This document shows positions 36,676-43,257 of a stretch of DNA of 64,000 nucleotides, one piece after another. The notes beneath the pieces are model-generated. The model searched no databases, was not told the DNA's origin, and worked only from the letters and a program-made list of their open reading frames with translations. Numbering within the stretch: position 1 is the first letter of the stretch; every line of letters starts with the position of its first letter. The stretch is from NCBI GenBank assembly GCA_016188575.1, contig JACPHN010000044.1, positions 1 to 64,000 of the forward strand. The letters are read 5' to 3'. A program made the translations under genes and the position numbers. This DNA is from Candidatus Schekmanbacteria bacterium. GTDB taxonomy: Bacteria > CSSED10-310 > JACPHN01.

Positions 36676-37555
36676 TGTGCAAGTATGGCGCGAACCCGGG
36701 GACCGCATGGGGCGGCGGACCGCGTTGCCAGGCCAATCGCTGCTGTGGGCGAAAGCCGGAATCCCGTTCTGGTGTTGGTGTCGAGGAAAGAATCGACCAA
36801 CGCCGGCACCGCGCGCTCGTCCGCCATGCCTCCAAGCTCAGTCGTGGCATAGTCGAAGACCGCCGCGCGGCGGACGCTCGGACGGTAGTCGCTAGACTCG
36901 AGGCGAGTCAGCCCCAGGCTGCACCTCCGCGAGGGGCCGAGTTTCTCCGGGCGCCATTGTCGGATTGGATCGAGGCCTACCAGAACAACACGGCCCGATG
37001 ATCCCCGGCCCGGCATTGGGGCCTGATGAGGCGCGCCCTGCTCAGCCAAGCCCGCGGTGGGAAGAAGTCTATAGGACGAAACCGGACATTCGGCCGGCGC
37101 CCGGTTCTGTCTGGCGAAGCGAGGCGAAACAAGCAGTCATGTCCGACGCCCACGGACCGTTAGCCATGCACGCCGCTAGAACGATCCATCGACCCCATCC
37201 GTGACGGAGCCCGCAACTCCCAGCGTCTTACCGAGCGAAAGTTGCGCGAGGCGCGGCGCCTTCCACGGCAGACGCCGCTCACTGCCGTGATGCGACCTCT
37301 CTTTTTCGCGGTCCGAGTGGTCCGATGATGACCCGGAATCTCCTGCAACGGGAGCACGGTGGTCCATGTCTATTGCCATCTCCGCTGAAAGGGTATGGGG
37401 AGCAGTGCTGACGGCGCCAATACCATCGCACTGCCTCGCTGTCAAGCAGGCCCCCCGTCACCGTGGTCAAGCAGCCGCCAGGCAGCCGACAACTCCTGGC
37501 CTCGGGCGCGTGCCTTACATTGTTGTGGATCGCCAGGTCAGACATTCGTTCCGAG
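36676..37555. other. 880-base stretch with no supportable gene
   Basis: Open frames exist on both strands, but none has a credible start with a ribosome binding site, a recognisable domain or coherent third-position bias. A minus-strand stretch near 36700-36890 (MADERAVPALVDSFLDTN) might be the remains of a gene. The right part of the stretch also shows weak coding character in several frames. It probably contains decayed sequence. Confidence 0.4.
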
Positions 37556-39202
37556 TCAGGGCGAAATGCGGTCCGCCGCGAGCTTCTGGACAACGGCCTC
37601 GAGCTGCGCGATCCGCGCCGACATCTCATCGATCCGAGCGTTCTTGGCTTCGAGCTCTGCCTGAAGCTCTTTTACGGCCACCAGCGCGACGCCGGCGACA
37701 TCCGAAACCGCGATTCCAGTACTGGATTCGCCGAGCCCAAACGCGGCGTGAAAATCCTCGGCAAACGGCCCCAGGTGCTTCACGGTCGGAGCATCGTGCT
37801 TGTAGCTCCACAGTGCAACCTCCAAGTTCTTCAGATGCCCGAGCACGTTCAATGACTCTGCCGATACCACATGCCCCTTGACCGCGCGACTCGAGCTCTG
37901 TGTCAAGGTGCCGGCGATCCACAAGTTCCCCGCCGCAGTGACCGCGAGGCGCAGGTCGGCGCCGTTATAGAAGGCGGCATTGCCGGCGGGGTAAAGACGC
38001 AGGCTGGCGCCGGTGCCGTCCGACCGGCCGATCTCGAATCCGTCCGTGTACGTCGAGAAGTCAGTCATCCTGAGTCTCCACTGGACGCCCGAAGTCACAT
38101 GGTCCAGCAAGATGGTGGGTTGCGCGGGTCTGGCGAGATGGAGGCTGGCAGTCGGTCCGTACGTTCCGAGCCCGATGTTACCCGAGGCGGCGATGGCGAG
38201 ACTGTTCTGGGGGGAACCGGGAAAAATCCGGAACGGGAGCCTCGATCCCGCAGTTACGTCGCGCACGAAGAAGTTCGCCTCGTTGCCAGCGACATCCCAC
38301 GTCTGTGCCGTGTAGCCAGAGGTGCCGTCCTGGTTGAATCGGACGGCAGGCGTGTCACCGCTGACCACATCCACATCCTTGACCGGGGAGGAGGTGCCAA
38401 GCCCAAGGCGCCCGCTACTATCAATATAGAGTGACGAGGTCGGTGCGCCCGCAGTTACCAAGAAGGGCGTCCTGGCATTGGTAACGTCATCGATTGCAAA
38501 CATGCTCCGGCCGCCGCTAGAAGAATCATTTGCGGTCAGTTGCCAATCGTTGGAAGGAAATGATCCGGTCGAGCTCGTGTCGTCGAACTTGATTCTGAGG
38601 TTATTTTCCTTGAGGCGAATGGTATCGAAGTCAAAATTCTCGTTGTTTACACAATCGAGCCCCACGCACAGGCTGCCAATGGTGATTTGATCGTCGCTGG
38701 TCACGACATCGAAGGGTTGCGCCGTGCCACCGCGGGCTGCGCGATCTCCTGAGGCCGGACCTCGGCCGCCTGGCCCGGGTTCTTCGTCCAAGGGGATTTC
38801 GCCGTCGCGGACGGTGAACGCTCCGGTCATCGTCGCCACCACCGTAGGAAGACGTCTCGAGAGGACCGACGGGCGGCCGTCGGCAGCCAGATCGCTGGCG
38901 CTCGGGAAGCGGAACAAGGTCAGCTCGTAGCGGTAGCTTCCATCCTTGATTGACTTGCCATTCTTGTCATAAGTGCGGAAGACGATCTGCTTGTCAGAGC
39001 CGACCGATACATCACTAATTGCCGCATTGCCAACCGATATCTTCAGGTTTGCCCTGTGATAAGATACGTTTGGTATGAATAAGAGCTCCGACGGATAGAC
39101 CTGTAGCGAGACATCGTTAGAAGCAGAGAGCATGGAGCTCGACATAGATAAGGCGACAACAAACAGAATTGTCAGAACAGGCAGAAGCGGCGATCGTATC
39201 AC
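37556..39202 (-). CDS. Exported protein with C-terminal S74 intramolecular chaperone domain
   Basis: The protein has 548 residues from GTG 39202, with AGGAG 8 bases upstream. An N-terminal hydrophobic signal (LLPVLTILFVVALSMSSSML) leads into a beta-rich region. Repeated tail-fibre-like segments follow (SSLYIDSSGRLGLGTSSPVK, IAASGNIGLGTYGPTASLHL). The last 120 residues match the peptidase S74 chaperone of phage tailspikes: the self-cleavage region QSSSRAVKGHV with serine five residues before lysine, HLGPFAEDFHAAFGLGESST, and GVALVAVKELQAELEAKNAR with a coiled coil. Here it is on a secreted bacterial protein, so it probably trimerises a surface fibre and then cleaves itself. Extending the frame to 39451 adds nothing conserved. 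Confidence 0.8.
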   Translation of the reverse strand: MIRSPLLPVLTILFVVALSMSSSMLSASNDVSLQVYPSELLFIPNVSYHRANLKISVGNAAISDVSVGSDKQIVFRTYDKNGKSIKDGSYRYELTLFRFPSASDLAADGRPSVLSRRLPTVVATMTGAFTVRDGEIPLDEEPGPGGRGPASGDRAARGGTAQPFDVVTSDDQITIGSLCVGLDCVNNENFDFDTIRLKENNLRIKFDDTSSTGSFPSNDWQLTANDSSSGGRSMFAIDDVTNARTPFLVTAGAPTSSLYIDSSGRLGLGTSSPVKDVDVVSGDTPAVRFNQDGTSGYTAQTWDVAGNEANFFVRDVTAGSRLPFRIFPGSPQNSLAIAASGNIGLGTYGPTASLHLARPAQPTILLDHVTSGVQWRLRMTDFSTYTDGFEIGRSDGTGASLRLYPAGNAAFYNGADLRLAVTAAGNLWIAGTLTQSSSRAVKGHVVSAESLNVLGHLKNLEVALWSYKHDAPTVKHLGPFAEDFHAAFGLGESSTGIAVSDVAGVALVAVKELQAELEAKNARIDEMSARIAQLEAVVQKLAADRISP

Positions 39203-39508
39203 GGTACTAGCTCCTGAGGGGAGGATGAGGAAATTCGCATGGGCACTTGGAGAAAGGGCCGGCAACCGGTCACCGCCGCCGCCAGGGGGGAACTCGTGAA
39301 AGAGTCTGCAGCAGAGGTCGCCGAGCATTTGCGAGGCTGCGCCAACGACATTCCGAATGCTCCGAGATTTATCTTCTTGCCTTGTCACTCGCGCCAATAG
39401 CCCATCGCCTGCACCCCCGGGGGCGGCCGGCTGCCGGACACACCCATTCATCGACAGGCCTGTTGCTTGCCCGCGCGACTCGATGACAGACGAAGTAAGG
39501 GCTTCATA
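39203..39508. other. Spacer without a supportable gene
   Basis: These 306 bases separate the S74 protein gene from the asparagine-synthetase-like gene on the same strand. I see no leader-peptidase gene, RNA or clear hairpin here. It must hold the promoter of the S74 protein gene. Confidence 0.4.
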
Positions 39509-41452
39509 CTATCGCCTTCGTTCCCCGTCAAGGCAAGGCAGTGCACCGAAGCCCTCGGGCTCCAGACTGCGAGCGATGAATCGGCTGGCGGAAAGCCCCC
39601 TCGTCAGAATGCACACCGCGTCGCGGTAACTGCGAGGAGAATCCACGCTTTGGACGAGACGCCACGCCTGCTGTATGGCGCTCAGGTCGAGGTAGTGCCT
39701 GAGGGCGGGCGAGAGGTGGATCGCGCGCAAATGTGCCTCGACCGCCGTCGCCTCTCTGCGCAAGCGAGCGCACAGGTCCGCGGCCTGGCGGCCGCGGAGG
39801 CGGTTCATCCTCACCGCGTCCGGGAGGCGTCCGAGCATCGCGGTGCGGATCAATAGCCGGTCCAGGCCGGTTTCCCGGTCAAAAAACAAATGGTCCGGTA
39901 CGCCGAGGCAGAAGCGCACCACGCGGATGTCCGCCGTCGGATCGCGGATCGAGAGGCCATGAGCCGCGCCATCCTCGGCGAACAGGTCACCCAGGATCGA
40001 GCGCCCCAGGCGCAGCATGCCGAGCCGCGCCTCCAGGGGATGGTGCCATGGCGCCCACATGGGGTGCAGCGCGTCGCCGACCGAGGCCCGTACGATGTCG
40101 AGTCGCGAGGCCAGGCGATCGTTCAGGGCCGTGTTCCCCCTCCACGGTTTGCCGAGCCGCAGGCGCAAGGCAAGCAACGGCCCCAGAACGGACTGCGGCA
40201 TGATCCCATACCCCGCTCGCTTCAGCCAACCCTTCTTCGCGGTAATATATTCGCGAAACGTTTTTCCGGGCAGCGATCTCGGCATTCCCTTCCAGGAAAT
40301 CGTCGCGTTGCCAAGCTGACCCGTGAGCACGACCGCGGCGCCCTCGGCGGCGGCAGCGGCATGGATGTCAGTCATCCAGTAGGCGTTGGCGCTCGCGTGC
40401 AGCGGCGACGCGTGAATGCACACCGATCGATCGATGGCCTCAAGCACAGATATGGCTTCGGAGCGGAGCGGCAGGTGTTGGATCCCGGGAGCTGCTCGCG
40501 CCGCCAGCTCCGCGAGTGATTGCTCATCTCCAAATCGGTCCGAGGAAACCGATGAGGAGGTGTCGAAGATAGGGACAGAGGTATAGGCGAGCAGAGCGCG
40601 GCCCTGGGCTGCCAGGTGCCGAGCGGCGGTCACGGCAACAGACGAGGAGTCGAGCCCTCCGGACAGCGTTGCTGCCACGCGGCCGCTGCTGCGGAGTCGG
40701 CAGCGCACCGCTTCGTCGAAGACCGGTAAAAAGGCCTCGCTGCATTCCTCGATGGATTTGTAAGGGACTTCGTGGAAGTCCTCCTGGAGCGCGTACTGCC
40801 GGGCGCTGGCGAGGCCGCTTTGCACCGTCAGCAGGTGTGCGGGCGGCAGGCGGCGAATCGGCGCGAACGCTGTGCGGTCTCCGTGATAGACCGGCCAGGA
40901 CAGCAGGAGCTGCGCGACGAAGAGCTCGTCAACGGTTGCGAGGCTGGCGTCCAGGGCCAGAAGCGCCTTCTTGTCGCTGGCAAAGGCAAACCATCGCGGA
41001 CCCGCATGGTAGTGAATGGGACACTGGCCAATTGGGTCGCGCGCCAGCAACAGGCGATGGGCGCCGGGCGAATAGACGGCAAACGCCCAGTCGCCGATGA
41101 GCCTCTCGGCACAGCCCTCGGCCCAGTGCTCGTAGCACCGGCCAAGCAGCGCGCCGTCGCTCAGCGATGCCCGCTCCGCGAGCGGAACCTTCAACGCGTC
41201 CATGAGCTCCTCGCGGTTGTCGAGCCGCGCCGCGGAGATCGAGATGTCGCCGTTGGCGAGCGCGACAGGCTGGCGCTCATGCAGTCCCTCAGGCGTATCC
41301 GCCCGCAACCGGCAGCCGAGCCCCGCGCGCTCGCTTTGCCACGCTCCGGACTCCTGTCGGCCCCAGCAGCTCGAACCGGCATCCAGGCGAGCCAGGTCCT
41401 GTCCCACGCATCGCCGATCATCCCAGCGGAGGATGCCGAAAATCGCGCTCAC
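39509..41452 (-). CDS. Asparagine-synthetase-family amidotransferase homologue (RiPP macrocyclase-like)
   Basis: The protein has 647 residues from GTG 41452. The N-terminal class-II glutaminase-like domain starts SAIFGILRWDD. The second residue is serine, not the nucleophilic cysteine, so glutamine hydrolysis is unlikely. DWAFAVYSPGAHRLLLARDP follows. The synthetase domain has the PP-loop SGGLDSSSVAVTAARHL and later LFAEDGAAHGLSIRDPTADI and MNRLRGRQAADL. Asparagine-synthetase homologues lacking Cys2 include lasso-peptide cyclases, which adenylate an Asp/Glu side chain. The adjacent PqqD-like and kinase-like genes support a role in modifying a ribosomal peptide. A plain asparagine synthetase is less likely. 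Confidence 0.85.
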   Translation of the reverse strand: MSAIFGILRWDDRRCVGQDLARLDAGSSCWGRQESGAWQSERAGLGCRLRADTPEGLHERQPVALANGDISISAARLDNREELMDALKVPLAERASLSDGALLGRCYEHWAEGCAERLIGDWAFAVYSPGAHRLLLARDPIGQCPIHYHAGPRWFAFASDKKALLALDASLATVDELFVAQLLLSWPVYHGDRTAFAPIRRLPPAHLLTVQSGLASARQYALQEDFHEVPYKSIEECSEAFLPVFDEAVRCRLRSSGRVAATLSGGLDSSSVAVTAARHLAAQGRALLAYTSVPIFDTSSSVSSDRFGDEQSLAELAARAAPGIQHLPLRSEAISVLEAIDRSVCIHASPLHASANAYWMTDIHAAAAAEGAAVVLTGQLGNATISWKGMPRSLPGKTFREYITAKKGWLKRAGYGIMPQSVLGPLLALRLRLGKPWRGNTALNDRLASRLDIVRASVGDALHPMWAPWHHPLEARLGMLRLGRSILGDLFAEDGAAHGLSIRDPTADIRVVRFCLGVPDHLFFDRETGLDRLLIRTAMLGRLPDAVRMNRLRGRQAADLCARLRREATAVEAHLRAIHLSPALRHYLDLSAIQQAWRLVQSVDSPRSYRDAVCILTRGLSASRFIARSLEPEGFGALPCLDGERRR

Positions 41453-41471
41453 CTGCGGCGCTCCCGGTCAA

Positions 41472-41780
41472 TCAATCGACCGCGTCAGCGCCGATCAGGC
41501 CAACGCGGTACAGCTCGTCGAGAAACTCCAGCACGTCGGATTCGCAGCGCGCCGCCGACACGTCGTAGCGCTGCTTCAAGAGCTCGCACAGATCGCGAAC
41601 CCGGATCGGCGCGCGGAGCAGCTCCCAGATGTGCCGTCCAATTGGGTCGAGCCCATAATAGGCGTCAGCCCGTTGGCTGATCATGACGAGCTCGTCATCG
41701 ATGGGCGCGGAGTCGATGCCCGGTGAGTGACAAACGAGACTGTCTCGCGAAATGGCGGGAGGGGAATGGCGGCGGCTCAT
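41472..41780 (-). CDS. PqqD-like RiPP recognition element protein
   Basis: The protein has 102 residues from ATG 41780, with GGAG 9 bases upstream. The PqqD/RRE winged-helix pattern is present: DDELVMISQRADAYYGLDPI, GRHIWELLRAPIRVRDLCEL and CESDVLEFLDELYRVGLI. Such proteins bind the leader of a precursor peptide and deliver it to the modifying enzyme. It lies 19 bases upstream of the amidotransferase homologue. Its ATG overlaps the stop of the 60-residue ORF by 4 bases (ATGA). Confidence 0.88.
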   Translation of the reverse strand: MSRRHSPPAISRDSLVCHSPGIDSAPIDDELVMISQRADAYYGLDPIGRHIWELLRAPIRVRDLCELLKQRYDVSAARCESDVLEFLDELYRVGLIGADAVD

Positions 41781-41959
41781 GGCTCGTGCTCCGACAAGTG
41801 AGTAGAGGGCGTCGCGCCCGCGACGCATCTCGAGGACCAGCCGAGGTCGGGCACCGGCGCCTGCTCCGCGGGTGGTCCGCACGCGTGCCCACATACGCAG
41901 GGCTCGCGTCCTCGCGCTCGAGGACTCGGGACAGGGTATCCGCCGGTGGTCCGGTGCAT
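41777..41959 (-). CDS. Candidate precursor peptide or other small protein in the RiPP-like cassette
   Basis: The frame has 60 residues from ATG 41959, one base after the kinase stop, and ends in an ATGA overlap with the PqqD-like start, so it fills the only gap in the cassette. The sequence runs MHRTTGGYPVPSPRARG, then REPCVCGHACGPPAEQAP, a middle stretch with GWSSRC, and ends PSTHLSEHEP. Tyr8, Pro11 and Gly17 match three positions of the lasso leader pattern YxxPxLxxxG, with proline in place of leucine. Gly24 and Glu32 could delimit a nine-residue ring. The ribosome binding site is weak and the frame could be chance. Confidence 0.35.
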   Translation of the reverse strand: MHRTTGGYPVPSPRARGREPCVCGHACGPPAEQAPVPDLGWSSRCVAGATPSTHLSEHEP

Positions 41960-41960
41960 G

Positions 41961-42872
41961 CTACGTCTCGGCAAGAAGCAACGAAGTCAGCTCGGCGGCC
42001 GTCCACCGCTGCCGCGGGCGACAGACGCGGAACATCGGCAGCGCGGCAGCGCGCAACAGCGGACCGGTGAAAGCCAGAGCGCCTCCCGCAGTTCCCGGTG
42101 GGAGACACGCGCCTTCCAGCCACGCAAGCTTCTCGAGTCCGCGGATCTCTTCGACGGCGATCTCCTCCCCATCGTGCACGGACAGGAAGAACAGACGCCC
42201 CACGCGAGCAGCCGGCGAGAGCGCGTCGCGGCATTCGAGGTGGATCAGGCGTTTGGCGGCAAACACTCCCGGCGGCACCGCACTGGGGCCGGGCGCCCGG
42301 AGATGCATGCGCTCGGCTGCGTCCGCGCAGAGGCGGTACTGCGGATAGGCTGGGAGCACGACGAGCTCACCATTGTCGTCCGACCGAATCACGCTCACGT
42401 CATCGGCGATGAGCCGCGCGCCGCTCCGCACGGCGGTCGCAAGCCACGTCGACTTGCCGGCGCCGGATTCGCCCGCAACGACCACCGCGCCGGAGGCGGT
42501 GCGGGCGGCATTGGCGTGCAGCACCAGGCAACCCCTCTGTGCCATGATGGCGGGCATGCAGGAATAGAGGAGGAAGCGATGTAGGGTCCCCGGGTCGCTG
42601 CCGGCCTCGGCGTCAATCACGATCTCGCAGCCATTCGCTGCCAGAAAACGACCGTATCCCGTCCTCCACAAGGTCGTGCCATCGCGTCCGACCTGCACCT
42701 GGACCCCGTCCTGCAGCCGATGGGCCTGTAAGGCCCGAGCCGCCAGCAACGGTTCCAGGGGGGCGAGCCGGACCCACACGTCCACGCTCTGCCCGCATGC
42801 GTCTTGCAGGACCGGGCTGCGGAATGGAAAGGCGAAGCACAGCCCGAACGCCGTGTAGAAATGCCTGCTCAC
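41961..42872 (-). CDS. HPr-kinase-like protein (HprK-related peptide kinase)
   Basis: The protein has 303 residues from GTG 42872. Walker A is VVAGESGAGKSTWLATAV (G134-T142). The HPrK-type acidic pair follows in GARLIADDVSVIRSDDNGEL, and LVLHANAARTASGAV precedes the loop. The N-terminal 110 residues are a separate domain seen in HprK-related kinases. True HPr kinases regulate sugar transport. The shorter relatives found beside PqqD-like and asparagine-synthetase-like genes are peptide or amino-acid-side-chain kinases in lasso and 'HPr-rel' loci. No HPr or PTS gene is nearby. It probably starts the cassette's transcription unit. Confidence 0.85.
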   Translation of the reverse strand: MSRHFYTAFGLCFAFPFRSPVLQDACGQSVDVWVRLAPLEPLLAARALQAHRLQDGVQVQVGRDGTTLWRTGYGRFLAANGCEIVIDAEAGSDPGTLHRFLLYSCMPAIMAQRGCLVLHANAARTASGAVVVAGESGAGKSTWLATAVRSGARLIADDVSVIRSDDNGELVVLPAYPQYRLCADAAERMHLRAPGPSAVPPGVFAAKRLIHLECRDALSPAARVGRLFFLSVHDGEEIAVEEIRGLEKLAWLEGACLPPGTAGGALAFTGPLLRAAALPMFRVCRPRQRWTAAELTSLLLAET

Positions 42873-42940: not shown

Positions 42941-43257
42941 ATCAGCAATGGCGCAACAATGCGGTCGCGCGCGCTGCGAGCAATCCGCATCGCTGACCTT
43001 CCGAGAGCGGTAGCGCACCACTTGCCATCCCCGGGTTGATCGCCGACATGCAAACGAGGGGCAGATTCAGATTTGACGAGCGCCTGTTTCCGCGCCAGGA
43101 GCCGCCGCCAGCATACCAAACGGCGCGGCGAACGCGGGCCAACAGTGGAGTCCGCGATCTGGACTGCGAGCGTAGCGCGACAAGACCGATTTGTGAAGGC
43201 GTTCTTGCTCGCCCGTAGGATTGCTTGACCAGATCGACTGCGAAGCGTCGGCTCACG

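Follow-up and report, generated by a model that had tools for sequence, protein, structure and literature searches.

Organization of the gene cluster

The window analysed here (64,000 nucleotides, positions 1 to 64,000 of contig JACPHN010000044.1 of a Candidatus Schekmanbacteria bacterium, assembly GCA_016188575.1) carries on its minus strand a group of genes that, judged from sequence, is a kinase-type (paeninodin-like) lasso-peptide cluster. It encodes an HprK-like kinase (K), a PqqD-like protein (B1), a lasso-peptide cyclase (C) homologous to the asparagine synthetase AsnB and a likely precursor peptide (A), and its leader peptidase (B2) is probably encoded elsewhere in the genome and shared. 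The host genome is a draft (9.2 Mb, 275 contigs, 94% complete), and whole-genome statements rest on genome searches. The features of the cluster are as follows (aa, amino acids; RiPP, ribosomally synthesized and post-translationally modified peptide):

41961-42872, minus strand: HprK-like precursor kinase (K), 303 aa, with H119, K140 and D157-D158
41472-41780, minus strand: B1, a PqqD-like RiPP recognition element (RRE), 102 aa, supported by Pfam PqqD, NF033536 and structural relatives
39509-41452, minus strand: lasso-peptide cyclase (C), AsnB-like, 647 aa, with Ser2, supported by NF033535 as best model and by the tree
37176-37367, minus strand: likely lasso precursor (A), 63 aa, ending in RRLPWKAPRLAQLSLGKTL followed by GVAGSVTDGVDGSF, supported by its leader/core pattern
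37179-37220, minus strand: predicted core peptide GVAGSVTDGVDGSF, placed by Thr(-2), G1 and D8

The kinase, PqqD-like and AsnB-like frames, already described in an earlier sequence-only reading of this DNA, are real according to the open reading frames (ORFs) and to Pfam and NCBIfam matches; all three are intact, show strong codon bias and retain their catalytic residues, and the core of the precursor is intact as well. No ABC exporter was found in the window cluster, unlike in paeninodin-type clusters.

Cyclase, B1 and kinase

The cyclase matches the NCBIfam lasso cyclase model NF033535 with 270.6 bits (cut-off 525) versus 129.8 bits for ordinary asparagine synthase, and B1 matches NF033536 (lasso_PqqD) with 63.7 bits (cut-off 80). 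As both scores lie below the cut-offs, assignment to these families rests on the best match, on the tree and on context. The tree, built from 45 AsnB-like proteins, places the window cyclase in a 7-member group (SH-aLRT 100) with other kinase-lasso cyclases and the C95 cyclase of its own genome, and the four ordinary AsnB-type proteins of the genome, which all start with MCGI, form a separate group (100). Clustering with ordinary asparagine synthetases, which the sequence-only reading had named as speaking against it, is thus not seen. The N-terminus reads V/M-S-A-I, so that the second residue is indeed Ser, as had been noted, and the catalytic Cys2 of glutamine-hydrolysing asparagine synthetase is absent. 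Since Ser2 is the rule among lasso cyclases whose start is readable, the missing Cys2 is expected rather than odd. A cyclase search of contigs recovered only two distant relatives (L016 and L017), and among the 60 nearest-relative genomes the cyclase was found only in the window's own genome.

The PqqD-like protein is, by its matches, a lasso B1/RRE: it is recognised by Pfam PqqD (1.9e-17), and its relatives of solved structure are TbiB1 (5v1u, 2e-9) and a second PqqD-family chaperone of lasso biosynthesis (9x90, 6.5e-10). In characterised systems, the leader is bound by B1 and handed to B2, and B1 can also accelerate phosphorylation (PMC5067487, PMC10368454); in addition, B1 stimulates B2 (PMC5067487, PMC10368454, PMC10885120).

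The kinase carries H119, K140, D157 and D158, corresponding to the H-K-D-D residues of lasso-precursor kinases of the PadeK/ThcoK/BsfK type, which are needed in the characterised enzymes (PMC9266682, PMC10368454). Its Pfam and NCBIfam matches to HprK and HprK-rel families are weak, namely 29.2 bits with HprK_rel_A (TIGR04352) and 28.3 bits with HprK_rel_B (TIGR04355), both below cut-offs of 200, and 21.6 bits with the metabolic HPr kinase/phosphatase TIGR00679 (cut-off 240), over the P-loop region only. A score so far under the latter cut-off speaks against a grouping with metabolic HPr kinases, which was part of the other adverse outcome envisaged beforehand.

Likely precursor peptide and predicted product

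The ORF at 37176-37367 likely encodes the lasso precursor, going by its sequence pattern: a W-x-x-P-x-L leader is followed by T(-2) and GVAGSVTDGVDGSF, giving an aromatic residue at -15, Pro(-12), Leu(-10), Leu(-7), Thr(-2), Gly1 and Asp8. The spacing of these residues equals what we take to be that of paeninodin, whose leader presumably has the same aromatic(-15), Pro(-12), Leu(-10) and Thr(-2). The leader/core pattern, drawn up after this ORF had been seen, occurs once in the window versus 0.02 times expected per random window. With a precursor profile built without it, the ORF ranked first of 1045 small ORFs (E-value 0.24). Across the whole genome, a profile that includes the precursors of the window and of contigs C95 and C150 picks out just these three places, each of them next to or not far from a kinase-cyclase cluster. 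The precursor of the Acidobacteriota genome G123 has a P..[LV]..L.LGKT spacing in common with that of the window.

As Gly1 and Asp8 stand at core positions 1 and 8, a G1-D8 bond would close the ring; the predicted [M+H]+ is 1249.57 for the lasso peptide and 1329.54 with phosphate. Candidate phosphorylation sites in the core are Ser5, Thr7 and Ser13. The core ends in GSF, with Ser second to last, and thus lacks the C-terminal Ser of PadeK/ThcoK substrates. The sequence-only reading had proposed a peptide modified by phosphorylation and amide formation, which the lasso cyclase, B1, lasso-type kinase and the precursor with its lasso leader and core support well at the level of sequence, but it had missed the precursor itself.

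Many Acidobacteriota kinase-lasso precursors (those of L054, L056, L060, L067, L071, L086, L088, L089 and L099) have, in place of a final Ser, a loose tail of the N/P-x-[KR]-T type (MNKT, NNKTD, NNSKT, NNLRT and PKTRTTAAP), which suggests that the kinase acts on Thr or at an internal position. Furthermore, an ORF at 3-155 of L075 (G123) has a tail, KPWVKPEMTELGHEMTESSAPGGYSPG, that fits the leader spacing without a ring acid and is possibly another precursor type.

A single unlinked B2 and the sister clusters

B2 searches gave no match above noise in the window and none elsewhere on its 95.6-kb contig. The earlier statement that no leader peptidase is present therefore holds for cluster and contig but not for the genome, which encodes one convincing B2 (G000:C250:32204-32704, 166 aa, 5.9e-24; next match, E-value 0.07). 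This protein scores 89.9 bits with NF033537 (lasso_biosyn_B2), above the cut-off of 33, and retains the Cys and the His of the AHAW motif. No C, K or B1 was found within 8 kb of it, and it is flanked by serC-like and peroxiredoxin-like genes (names read from sequence). Contamination of the metagenome-assembled genome as origin of this orphan was considered and rejected, as C250 agrees with the window in GC content (0.641) and in tetranucleotide composition (r 0.987), although composition alone is no proof.

The same genome encodes two sister clusters: C95 has C, K, B1 and a precursor ending in GSGTDSSIYS, and C150 a precursor ending in NSSTDGGGYS, followed by B1, C and K. Both precursors end in Ser and lie beside B1. 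A kinase-cyclase pair on C154 (L019, 4918-8566) adjoins a sulfotransferase-like gene; in its kinase, Glu replaces the catalytic His and ADG replaces ADD, so that the second Asp is lost, and no B1 or precursor was found nearby. From its sequence, this pair looks degenerate, i.e. decayed or repurposed. An orphan B1-like PqqD protein on C230 (L036, 9273-9728) could serve the C154 pair; the 12.3 kb fetched there contain neither a cyclase nor a kinase nor a B2. No B2 was found near the C95, C150, C154 or C230 loci. The occurrence of one B2 in a genome with three such clusters suggests one leader peptidase common to several.

Beside the C95 cluster (L018, 8268-11730), a glycosyltransferase-like gene, a radical-SAM-like fragment and a LanC-like protein were noticed by eye.

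Comparison across Acidobacteriota and B2-cyclase subtype match

The comparison set consisted of 396 genomes of Acidobacteriota, the phylum of the Sulfopaludibacter relative. The kinase profile matched in 86 of them, and 31 of the 40 kinase regions fetched contain both C and K. A local B2 is present in 24 of these 31 regions; one (L080) is cut by a contig end, and six (L053, L058, L072, L075, L076 and L077, the first, third and fourth with a short flank on one side), spread over five genomes, have no B2. All five genomes with a B2-less cluster have a B2 elsewhere, versus 78/396 genomes with B2 overall, which would be expected by chance with a probability of about 0.0003 if independent. G123 mirrors the genome of the window: two of its clusters have no B2, and its one orphan B2 lies elsewhere. 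The B2 of G291 also stands alone, that of G447 is paired with a B1, and those of G429 and G209 belong to or lie near another cluster.

The two relatives found with the cyclase, L016 and L017, both have a local B2. L016 had been a candidate B2-less locus, but its B2, missed with one B2 as query, was found between its B1 and C by family search and profile, and the locus was moved to the B2-positive controls. Several B2s (L023, L017, L095, L099, L100 and others) have Gly 12 residues after the His, a position which we take to be that of the triad Asp of McjB-type peptidases; the Cys and His are kept in nearly all.

As a B2 tree was unable to place the orphan B2, a two-profile test was used. A clade of 14 members, including the cyclases of the window, C95, C150 and C154, was defined from the cyclase tree alone; the clade B2 profile was built from its eight members with a local B2, and size-matched random sets of other B2s served as controls. 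The C250 B2 scores 130 bits with the clade profile versus 80 with controls, and the orphan B2 of G123 scores 114 versus 80. For all eight clade B2s, each left out of the profile when scored, the clade profile gives the better score, whereas it gives the poorer score for 24 of 26 other B2s; the fetched regions of the remaining two (L068 and L055) contain no cyclase. The clade profile is also the poorer match for the distant B2s of G447 and G291, genomes whose B2-less cyclases fall outside the clade. These scores indicate that the unlinked C250 B2 is of the kind used by the window's cyclase clade.

Neighbouring features

Three further features of the region are:

41777-41959, minus strand: 60-residue ORF, probably not a gene; flat codon-position GC, no relatives
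37556-39451, minus strand: S74-chaperone-like protein, weak Peptidase_S74 match, between precursor and enzymes
43027-43191, minus strand: possible remains of a local B2, no more than a weak hint (10.6 bits, B2 profile)

The 60-residue ORF starts one base past the kinase stop and has an ATGA overlap with B1. Its codon-position GC is flat (0.69/0.70/0.74 versus about 0.70/0.52/0.79 in real genes), and no relatives were found in any fetched locus except copies of the window locus; it is therefore treated as a chance frame, and the earlier view of it as a gene of the cassette is abandoned. Having no codon signal, relatives or lasso leader pattern, it was also rejected as a precursor or small protein. 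The conserved small ORF anticipated in homologous loci does exist, but it is the lasso precursor and not this frame.

The S74-like gene has a low GC content at third codon positions (0.49), was not seen in the sister clusters and is probably an intruder or insertion outside the pathway, as its composition suggests. The B2-like stretch at 43027-43191, just upstream of the kinase, is a weak hint in the sequence of a decayed local B2: its score is reached by 2 of 1000 shuffles of the region, no HAW motif follows, and the stretch, one among several places inspected, is too faint to lean on.

Proposed pathway and alternative explanations

The probable explanation is a kinase-type lasso cluster that relies on a shared leader peptidase encoded at an unlinked site. 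The local B1 would bind the precursor via its W..P.L leader, and the kinase would probably phosphorylate a core Ser or Thr, Ser13 being the likeliest. The unlinked C250 B2 would be recruited by the leader-bound B1 and cut after Thr(-2)-Leu(-1), after which the cyclase would link Gly1 to Asp8. The same B2 would also serve the C95 and C150 clusters, each with its own precursor, B1, cyclase and kinase. Given the leader binding by B1 and its presentation to B2 in known systems, a shared B2 with cluster-specific B1 adaptors is the most economical arrangement. It is put at even chances that three or more kinase-type lasso clusters of the same cell depend on a single unlinked B2 as their leader peptidase, with cluster-specific B1s as substrate adaptors, and that this layout arose more than once (also in the Acidobacteriota genome G123).

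Several points weigh against this explanation. The core has Phe as its last residue, where paeninodin and the C95 and C150 precursors have Ser; 2.1 kb and the S74-like gene separate the precursor from the cyclase, and the profile E-value of the precursor is by itself not significant. The B2 tree is poorly resolved and could not place the orphan, a second B2 could lie in the missing part of the draft genome, and the B2s of G429 and G209 lie beside or near another cyclase, so that their presence need not mean sharing. Gene identities, the precursor pattern, the presence of one B2 per genome and the B2-cyclase subtype match come from sequence; every enzymatic step, the phosphorylation site and the sharing of B2 are inferred.

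It is improbable that the cluster works without any B2, another cellular protease or slow non-specific trimming freeing Gly1 before the cyclase closes the ring. The cluster does lack B2, and pseudomycoidin, a kinase-type lasso peptide, was reportedly formed in vivo without leader and leader peptidase (title of Zyubko 2019, cited in PMC9266682); however, the genome retains an intact B2 of matching subtype, every intact cluster retains B1, which is known for leader recognition for B2, and the precursor retains the Thr(-2) read by B2. Decay of the cluster, in which its own B2 was lost (perhaps leaving the relic at 43027-43191), the S74-like insertion detached the precursor, no product is made any longer and the C250 B2 serves other clusters only, would explain the weak relic signal and the gene with low third-position GC that separates precursor from enzymes, and would have a parallel in the degenerate-looking C154 pair. 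It is nevertheless unlikely in view of the intact, strongly codon-biased kinase, B1 and cyclase frames with their catalytic residues, the preserved core, and the two sister clusters that likewise have no B2 although their precursors lie beside B1. Finally, the product might be an amide-linked peptide that is not threaded or differs in some other way, in line with the comparison with HPr-rel loci in the sequence-only reading. Threading is invisible in sequence and the kinase has weak HprK_rel_A/B matches, but these stay at 28-29 bits where the cut-offs are 200, lasso models are the best fit for cyclase and B1, and the core has G1 and D8, which makes such a product very improbable.

If B2 acts in trans, as the shared-peptidase explanation requires, B2-less clusters are intact once the distant B2 is counted. 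As genome-mining rules usually expect B2 beside the cyclase, they may lead to such clusters being dismissed as defective. A single protease working with several B1 adaptors would, if true, also be a natural test of how B1 dictates substrate choice. Furthermore, the finding adds a set of predicted phosphorylated lasso peptides from a phylum that is represented by just seven other genomes in the set of relatives drawn from the collection.

Comparison with known systems

Paeninodin-type phosphorylated lasso clusters are known from Firmicutes, with the gene order C-A-K-B1-B2-D (PMC5067487, PMC9266682). The window cluster shares with them a precursor, an HprK-like kinase with H-K-D-D, a split B1 and an AsnB-like cyclase, but it differs in its unlinked, apparently shared B2, in a core ending in Ser-Phe instead of Ser and in the absence of a cluster ABC exporter. 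The bsf cluster of Bradymonas (PMC10368454) is alike in combining K, B1, B2 and C, in its low-identity HprK-like kinase and in an 8-residue Gly1-Asp8 ring; its B1 aids phosphorylation as well as cleavage (PMC10368454). Unlike the window cluster, bsf includes a local B2, a nucleotidyltransferase and an exporter, and its peptide has Ile(-2) and is phosphorylated at Ser3. Acidobacteriota lasso clusters from soil metagenomes (PMC9064862) likewise encode B1, B2 and an Asn-synthase-type C, one of them with a kinase, but their B2 adjoins or is near B1 and C.

No description of a trans-acting lasso B2 was found in the literature searched, which did not cover subscription papers. In the case of the unclustered lanthipeptide proteases (PMC8960859), a leader protease is likewise encoded far from the peptide cluster; these belong to another peptide class and to other protease families, whereas the distant enzyme predicted for the window cluster is a dedicated lasso B2.

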